From contig CAIUOG010000176.1 of NCBI GenBank assembly GCA_903900705.1, positions 1 through 64,000 on the forward strand: 64,000 bases of DNA. The letters are read 5' to 3'. The notes beneath the pieces were generated by a model. The model worked only from the letters and a program-made list of their open reading frames with translations, was not told where the DNA came from and searched no databases. Origin of the DNA: an uncultured Acidobacteriia bacterium (lineage in GTDB: Bacteria; Acidobacteriota; Terriglobia; Bryobacterales; Bryobacteraceae). Positions 626 through 2,126 of the stretch are shown here, one piece after another. The first letter of the stretch is position 1. The number at the start of each line of letters is the position of its first letter. The translations under genes and the position numbers were made by a program.

Positions 626-701
626 GGGCCCTTAGCTCAATGGTTAGAGCAGCGGACTCATAATCCGTTGGTTGCAGGTTCAAGTCCTGCAGGGCCCACC
701 A
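626..701 (+). tRNA. tRNA-Ile (anticodon CAT, lysidine-modified type)
   Basis: A complete 76-base cloverleaf. The seven-base acceptor arms GGGCCCT and AGGGCCC pair perfectly, the D stem is GCTC/GAGC, the anticodon stem is GCGGA/TCCGT with loop CTCATAA, the T stem is GCAGG/CCTGC with loop TTCAAGT, and CCA is encoded. The anticodon CAT is at 659-661. The overall sequence, especially the GGxCCCTTAGCTCAxTGGTTAGAGCA start, resembles E. coli ileX/ileY tRNA and not elongator tRNA-Met. It should therefore be read as isoleucine tRNA for AUA codons, which needs TilS modification of C34. Confidence 0.9.
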
Positions 702-742
702 ATAGAATCCATTGCGTGCATTTACGAAATGCGGCTGATTAT

Positions 743-1291
743 TCAAATCAGGCGGACTTGAGCGGCACAGACTGACTGGACACGGGATTTACTTTTTGGA
801 TGTCGGTTGAGGACCATCGTCTGTGAAATGAACGGTTCAACCCAAATGCCATTGCCGGGGAGAGCGGTGTCGAGCAGGATACCGAATGCCTGACTTATGG
901 TACTCTCATCAGCCCCATGAAGAATCCACACTCCAAAGCAACTGGTTCGGCCAGCGGTCAATAGTTTCAGATGTTTCTTGTAGTCCTTGGCAACCTCATC
1001 GATCCGTCCCGATTGAGAACAAACGTCCGACGCACGCCAGGGGCCTTTGATTTCTATCGCTTCTGCTAAAGTCGAACCGTCTCGAATGGCGATGTCTATC
1101 TTCTTTTCTTCCATCCACGCGTCGTAGCCAAGAGCGACCAGCTCTCGCCAGAGGAGGAACTGAATGTCGTATTCCCTGTATTGGCGCGAACTGCGAGTGC
1201 CATTCAGACCTCTCAAGAAGACCTCCTCTGCCGCCAGCAAGTTGAGCGTTGTCTCTGCGAGGTACCTGGTGGTGATAACCCGGATTTCCAT
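743..1291 (-). CDS. hypothetical protein with PD-(D/E)XK-like signature
   Basis: A 182-residue soluble protein from the ATG at 1291. An upstream TTG at 1375 would add 28 residues of no recognisable character. Asp66 followed by Glu80-Ile-Lys82 within two predicted beta strands (KKIDIAIRD, then EAIEIKGPW) matches the D...ExK arrangement of PD-(D/E)XK nucleases. The surrounding residues look like a substrate-binding nuclease-fold domain, but I recognise no family. It is the last gene of a probable three-gene minus-strand operon and ends 41 bases from the tRNA. Nuclease activity is inference from three residues. A non-catalytic hypothetical protein is equally possible. Confidence 0.6.
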   Translation of the reverse strand: MEIRVITTRYLAETTLNLLAAEEVFLRGLNGTRSSRQYREYDIQFLLWRELVALGYDAWMEEKKIDIAIRDGSTLAEAIEIKGPWRASDVCSQSGRIDEVAKDYKKHLKLLTAGRTSCFGVWILHGADESTISQAFGILLDTALPGNGIWVEPFISQTMVLNRHPKSKSRVQSVCAAQVRLI

Positions 1292-1384
1292 TAGTCCCAA
1301 TCTGGTATGTTTATGCGTGGAAGTGGAGCCCTGAACATACGCCGTTTCACTCCTTTCGGAGCAATTGCGGAGCAATCCGAAATG

Positions 1385-1555
1385 TCAGACTTCGCCATTT
1401 GCGGTTTCGTCGGAGATCAGTCCCATCAGGAATTCCATCGGAGTACCCGGTGGAAACATCACGTTGTCACCGAACTTCTCACCAGTAATCTCAGTTCCGG
1501 TGGCGTCGTCACGATAGACCACCGAACTTTCGTCATGTCTGATCAGCACAAACAT
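1385..1555 (-). CDS. small hypothetical protein
   Basis: A 56-residue acidic protein. I take the ATG at 1555, because AAAGAGG lies just upstream of it; an ATG at 1570 adds five residues. No motif, signal peptide or membrane segment is visible. It sits between two other short minus-strand genes (7 to 22 bases after the upstream stop, depending on start), which supports co-transcription. A plus-strand frame also runs through here but has no ribosome binding site or recognisable content. Confidence 0.45.
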   Translation of the reverse strand: MFVLIRHDESSVVYRDDATGTEITGEKFGDNVMFPPGTPMEFLMGLISDETANGEV

Positions 1556-1577
1556 GAGGCCTCTTTCCATTCAAGCT

Positions 1578-2126
1578 TCATACGAAGCCGTAGGTGATTC
1601 GAGTGCCAGTTCGGACGTTCGCCCACTCCCGCATCGATCTCTCTCGAATCCAGGGATCTGCTTCGCCAACAAATCCTGGTAAAGGATCGCCAGCGAGAAT
1701 TTTGGTTCGCCGCTCGTCTATGGAATTCTGGTATTGCTTACTCCAGGGCGGCAGGTCGTGATCGTCACCTCGCGAAATCAATCGCAGGTGCCGGGGTTCC
1801 ACAACGATGTTCACCGGTTCCAGTGTCCATTCTTCAACGTGAACCTGAGGTTCGCCATCCTCCCATACTCTATATCCCGGAGGGATATGCGCTGAGACAT
1901 CCAGGGAAACGGAATCGTCAAGGTTCACGCGATGGACTCGACATGTTTTTCTGAGGCTTTTCCGAAAGAAGAACTGCCACCCGTTCCAATCCTTGTCTGA
2001 AGTCGGTGCGGGAAGGGTTTCGATTCTTACCCAGTCGCCGACCTGCGGGACCTGCGACGAAGCCGGGGCGCCAGAGGGGAAGATCGGAATGAGGGCAGAG
2101 GAGAGAAAGTCGCGTCTGGTCGACAT
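1578..2126 (-). CDS. hypothetical exported protein with Tat-like leader
   Basis: A 182-residue protein from the ATG at 2126. The N-terminus STRRDFLSSALIPIF followed by small residues is Tat-like (twin arginine, then a short hydrophobic stretch), which decides this start over an upstream one that would overlap the divergent sulfatase. The rest is rich in Trp, Pro and charged residues (GDWVRIETLP, then a WEDGEP...VEEWTLEP region). That suggests a small beta-sheet domain, possibly SH3-like, but I do not recognise a family. It is the first gene of the three-gene minus-strand cluster. The divergent spacer to the sulfatase is 67 bases. Confidence 0.55.
   Translation of the reverse strand: MSTRRDFLSSALIPIFPSGAPASSQVPQVGDWVRIETLPAPTSDKDWNGWQFFFRKSLRKTCRVHRVNLDDSVSLDVSAHIPPGYRVWEDGEPQVHVEEWTLEPVNIVVEPRHLRLISRGDDHDLPPWSKQYQNSIDERRTKILAGDPLPGFVGEADPWIRERSMREWANVRTGTRITYGFV

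Follow-up and report, generated by a model that had tools for sequence, protein, structure and literature searches.

The segment at about 702-2126 of the window (the whole stretch of DNA analysed, 64,000 nucleotides, corresponding to positions 1-64000 of contig C176 of the source genome) reads, with a probability of roughly one half, as a small horizontally acquired accessory insertion on the 3' side of a tRNA gene, in which P0001 is most likely defence cargo related to restriction. A small acquired insertion is the best account of this segment because its composition is foreign, it is absent from relatives and the adjacent tRNA is a used attachment site. The features of the region are the following:

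1-580, plus strand: folP-like gene with a C-terminal Gly/Arg/Asp/Pro-rich repeat tail; the contig starts inside the gene, which matches the folP of congeners by this tail
626-701, plus strand: tRNA gene with anticodon CAT (ARAGORN), the presumed integration site; fragments of it occur in 4/15 congeners
743-1291, minus strand: P0001, 182 aa, candidate PD-(D/E)XK-type nuclease with D66 and E80-x-K82; homologue in G032 (locus L082)
1385-1570, minus strand: P0002, an ORF of 61 aa; homologue not found
1578-2126, minus strand: P0003, an ORF of 182 aa with a twin-arginine-like N-terminus and weak similarity to SH3_15; homologue not found
2191-3630, plus strand: sulfatase, the chromosomal right flank; orthologues 71-76% identical in 7 congeners

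ARAGORN labels the tRNA as Met on the strength of its anticodon; we take it to be, probably, a tRNA-Ile2 read through lysidine, like those of ileX and ileY of E. coli. The three ORFs beyond it lie on the same strand, with 7 nt separating P0003 from P0002 and 93 nt separating P0002 from P0001. Promoter-like sites were found on neither strand of 590-2300, and the same interval holds one terminator-like site, against 1.8 expected. The original prediction had described three short minus-strand genes of no recognisable family, and this description holds: the ORFs of 182, 61 and 182 aa have no match above a curated cut-off.

The cluster has a foreign composition. Over 702-2126 the GC fraction is 0.528, whereas the window averages 0.619 (sd 0.025), in agreement with the earlier impression that the bases near the tRNA are less GC-rich than their surroundings; this is the lowest-GC stretch of its length in the 64-kb window, every 1425-bp interval that starts beyond 2200 being richer in GC. 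The edges of the low-GC segment fall at 636 and 2035 in a change-point fit. At third codon positions P0001, P0002 and P0003 all have a GC of 0.59, as against 0.72-0.77 in six neighbouring genes, a comparison that leaves out two rows: DUF1592, for which the range was set out of frame (0.43 at third positions), and the repetitive tail of folP (0.73). The codon fit to neighbouring genes is poor for P0001 and P0003; for all three ORFs it is best in the named frame, with a narrow margin for P0001 and P0003. As a pair, P0001 and P0003 are not a product of chance, since among 2000 runs of a first-order Markov simulation two ATG ORFs of at least 182 aa appeared in only 0.15% (3/2000), as compared with 5.3% for one such ORF. 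The frame of P0001 is further backed by a homologue in the same frame. P0002, at 61 aa, is too short to be accepted on length alone; it has an alternative start at Met6 (position 1555), with GGAAAGAGG shortly upstream of this codon.

P0003 begins with MSTRRDFL, and the STRRDFL following the first Met fits the twin-arginine export motif; it is probably an exported protein. The fitted low-GC segment does not reach the first ~90 nt of its gene (~30 codons, 2036-2126), which gives the look of a foreign ORF joined to a signal sequence that was already resident. A single-sequence structure model of P0003 (pLDDT 30.7) was too poor for a fold search. For both P0003 and P0002 the family searches found no link to defence and no likeness to parts of restriction-modification (R-M) systems.

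Conservation of the cluster throughout the genus, the outcome that the original prediction had named as speaking against an insertion, does not hold, given the foreign composition of the cluster and its absence from relatives: all three proteins are absent from the 18 of 18 same-genus genomes listed. In the wider search of the relatives P0001 occurs in 2/101 genomes, namely the source and G032, and is thus absent from 99 of 100 relatives; P0002 occurs in the source genome only (1/101, covering the 100 relatives and the source), as does P0003 (1/101 in the same set and 1/396 phylum genomes). Matches to P0001 in the phylum come from 2/396 genomes, the source and G292; the latter match (E 7e-4) was rejected, being 36 residues in a stop-filled frame that lacks the core motif. 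A two-sequence profile recovered P0001 in 1/399 genomes of the class, the source itself, the negatives being weak with at most 8 candidates scored per genome. Among the relatives of G032, the G032 homologue is confined to G032 (1/101). For P0001, two strict peptide patterns matched a single locus across 84,980 genomes, on the same G032 contig; this does not bound the family, because only these two strict patterns were used.

Searches of phage, plasmid and viral-contig sequences gave no matches to P0001, and those of plasmids and viruses gave none to P0003. With a threshold of E<=10, NCBIfam, PADLOC and PHROGs gave no family match for the three proteins, and the G032 homologue likewise has no match in PADLOC. 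The only Pfam match for the cluster is that of P0003 to SH3_15, which falls below the cut-off (E 0.0036, 18 bits vs 24). Several further candidates were set aside: two Pantoea plasmid matches to the G032 homologue (E 0.04-0.05) lie within DNA cytosine methyltransferase genes and are not relatives; the PDB sequence matches (E 0.07 or worse) and a DNA_pol3_delta match (E 0.11) were taken as chance.

Within the genus this tRNA serves as an integration site. Each of the 26 genomes searched, which include 15 congeners, has a match to it, and in 4 of these 15 (G005, G007, G014 and G015) fragments broken in the anticodon region are found as well: the 5' fragments run as far as nt 41-43, immediately past the anticodon loop, and the 3' ones begin near nt 31-37. 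The match in G009 stops at a contig end and is uninformative. The clearest layout is that of G014 (L090/L073, G014:C233:7316-16581), where ~9.1 kb of a single contig separate a full tRNA from a 3' fragment of 46 bp; a phage-type integrase (PF00589, E 1.5e-25) neighbours that fragment, and a DUF927/primase-type gene lies inside the island. An integrase (E 1.3e-20) adjoins the 5' fragment in G015, where another fragment adjoins folP. G007 (L074:2840-8440) has two islands. In the first, of 3.1 kb, a 5' fragment and the full tRNA enclose AbiEi- and AbiEii-like genes; in the second, of 2.4 kb, the full tRNA and a 3' fragment enclose a HipA-like gene and what we read as an HTH-like ORF. No integrase-like ORF of at least 70 aa was seen in the G007 islands, with Pfam searches covering three of their proteins and PADLOC searches six. 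These two islands displace opposite halves of the same tRNA, one the 5' half and the other the 3' half. The AbiEi-like protein of G007 has an N-terminal IDI...CEVK stretch that resembles a second nuclease-type core; a relationship between it and P0001 is not detectable by BLAST (E 0.20).

Such features have precedents in the literature. Use of tRNA genes as island sites is established, and tRNA-plus-fragment signatures and crossovers in the anticodon loop are the standard mark of such islands (PMC4383910). In E. coli, 18/41 defence hotspots are given as tRNA loci, and AbiEii occurs at particular hotspots (PMC10121019); low-GC islands with tRNAs and hypothetical genes are described for Solibacter, an acidobacterium (PMC3174227). 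A limited literature check found no paper on this tRNA site or on P0001.

On the 5' side of the tRNA, folP is the direct neighbour in G000 (recognised by its tail), G001, G008, G011 and G014, and in G015 it stands 5' of the fragment. It is 3.7 kb from the tRNA and on the other strand in G007, and is not seen beside the tRNA in G002, G004, G006, G010, G012 and G013; the G003 contig begins 62 bp before the tRNA. The ORF at 1-580 of the window is shared with G001, G007, G008, G011, G014 and G015, and the G014 copy matches Pterin_bind at E 9.8e-68. A reading of this upstream gene as a DEAD-box helicase was rejected: in the congeners it is folP (dihydropteroate synthase) with a repetitive tail. Throughout the copies seen in the genus (window 1-580; L067, L072, L073, L074, L084, L092) FolP ends in a long low-complexity Arg/Gly/Asp/Pro repeat closing with RPFRKRP or a near variant of it. 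For a folate enzyme, a disordered RGG-like tail looks unusual, and no paper on such a tail was found.

The 3' flank of the tRNA is different in every congener compared, and includes metabolic genes: GSDH and GH42 in G008, and SCO1 and a multicopper oxidase in G011. The sulfatase orthologues of the 7 congeners lie at other places in their genomes. An empty folP-tRNA-sulfatase junction was found in none of the congeners compared, and no true empty site is available because the 3' flank differs everywhere and the sulfatase orthologues sit elsewhere; for want of such a junction, and with the 3' flank so variable, the right edge of the insertion is set by composition alone. Within the source genome, a search for a second copy of the tRNA 3' end, allowing as many as 3 mismatches over 25 nt, found none, BLAST with the tRNA returned only other tRNAs, and family searches of the three cluster ORFs found no integrase. 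The same two absences, of a duplicated tRNA end and of an integrase, had been noted at the outset from the window. The route of insertion is accordingly only inferred, since the source genome yielded no tRNA fragment or integrase for this insertion and no empty-site relative was found.

The main gene of the insertion, P0001, is most likely a PD-(D/E)XK-type nuclease. The D66...E80-x-K82 motif ascribed to one of the three genes is present as described, in the tRNA-proximal 182-residue protein. A homology search with P0001 gave one accepted homologue, in G032 (L082), which belongs to another genus of the same family (36% identity, E 1.5e-12). The two proteins share I65-D66-I67, E80-x-K82-G-P-W85 and the stretch from E40 to W48, such that D66, E80 and K82 are all kept, in a comparison of two sequences only. 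An AlphaFold2 model built from the two-sequence alignment has a mean pLDDT of 38.5 and is unusable, also for a fold search; at this low confidence it places a helix at 35-53, strands at 56-58, 66-70 and 78-82, a helix at 97-111 and a strand at 121-124. This order is that of the PD-(D/E)XK core, the model not being evidence by itself.

The genomic context of the homologue (L082:5443-8478) is an R-M cassette. A BsuBI/PstI-type endonuclease gene (PF06616, E 6e-62; PF17728, E 2e-54) has its stop 4 nt before the start of the homologue and is itself preceded by a type II methyltransferase gene (PADLOC, E 3.5e-200), which makes the homologue the third gene of the cassette; as read from the sequences, typA flanks the cassette on one side and a trmFO-like gene on the other. 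The link of P0001 to R-M rests on this one case, because a P0001-like gene is present at 0/25 other BsuBI/PstI loci (in 24/347 phylum genomes), with flanks of ~1.5 kb on each side covered for most. The defence role of P0001 is a reasoned guess, drawn from the nuclease-type core, the R-M context of its sole homologue and the AbiE- and HipBA-like cargo of G007.

We infer that the cluster arose by site-specific integration with later loss of the distal tRNA fragment, and that P0001 cuts DNA and defends. By this mechanism the insertion would have entered the 3' side of a tRNA gene used as an attachment site by the mobile elements of the genus; P0001 would be a small metal-dependent PD-(D/E)XK-type DNA nuclease, an orphan cutter degrading incoming DNA; P0003 and P0002 would be passenger genes, with P0003 exported. 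The original prediction of a small accessory or defence insertion at the tRNA thus stands in part: the segment is foreign, absent from relatives and next to a tRNA used in the genus, and the nuclease motif is kept in a homologue from an R-M operon, while the route and timing of insertion, the nuclease activity and the defence role are matters of proposal.

The strongest competing account, possible though clearly less probable, is that ordinary recombination, homologous or by end joining, fixed foreign DNA next to the tRNA; neither site-specific integration nor defence would be involved, and its ORFs would be ORFans drifting near a flexible spot. The lack of an att copy and of an integrase would follow naturally, as would the lack of homologues for two of the three ORFs in the searches made and a tRNA 3' flank that varies among the congeners compared and holds metabolic genes in G008 and G011. 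It leaves aside the use of this very tRNA as an integration site in 4/15 congeners, and it does not anticipate a conserved nuclease-type core in P0001 or the R-M setting of the gene in G032. That setting raises another account, an improbable one, by which P0001 is what is left of a BsuBI/PstI-like R-M operon in which it once stood third, the remaining genes having been lost, just as the G032 homologue lies directly behind such methyltransferase and endonuclease genes. The source genome, however, has no BsuBI/PstI endonuclease domain (PF06616), the 25 other phylum loci have no P0001-like neighbour in the flanks examined, and P0003 and P0002 do not resemble R-M parts. Least probable of all is that the three genes work together as a single unit, such as a toxin-like nuclease, its small partner and an exported accessory protein: the shared strand and the 7 nt from the P0003 stop to the P0002 start would suit this, but P0002 and P0001 are 93 nt apart and G032 carries its P0001 homologue with no match to P0002 or P0003.

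An acquired insertion with P0001 as defence cargo is the reading we prefer. An extension of it is a long shot: in this genus the anticodon region of the tRNA would collect integrase-less islands of ~1.4-3 kb, and larger elements at that site would supply, in trans, the integrases that move them. Each island would hold a single module of toxin-antitoxin or defence type, as do the AbiE-like and HipBA-like ones of G007 and the lone PD-(D/E)XK-type nuclease of this cluster, and with P0001 a tiny defence nuclease family restricted to Bryobacterales would have its first described member. If right, the preferred reading would provide an integration site in a little-studied soil lineage for finding short unannotated defence-type genes, and would name one small nuclease family missing from the defence and domain libraries searched. 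As the evidence stands, the cluster is an ordinary accessory insertion.

Comparable elements are found among three known systems. With the PD-(D/E)XK nuclease superfamily of restriction endonuclease-like proteins P0001 shares the D...E-x-K spacing, kept in the 36% identical homologue (two sequences); it matches none of the named families searched, and its fold and activity are predicted only. The BsuBI/PstI type II R-M cassette of G032 holds the only P0001 homologue found, as its third gene, whereas in the window neither a methyltransferase nor a BsuBI/PstI endonuclease lies beside P0001 and the source genome lacks PF06616. Relative to tRNA-targeting genomic islands of the Islander type, the cluster has neither a tyrosine integrase nor a displaced tRNA fragment at its other end and, at 1.4 kb, is shorter than the floor of 2 kb that Islander applies (PMC4383910). 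What it shares with these islands is cargo placed directly 3' of an intact tRNA, atypical composition, absence from relatives and congeners that use the same tRNA as an attachment site.
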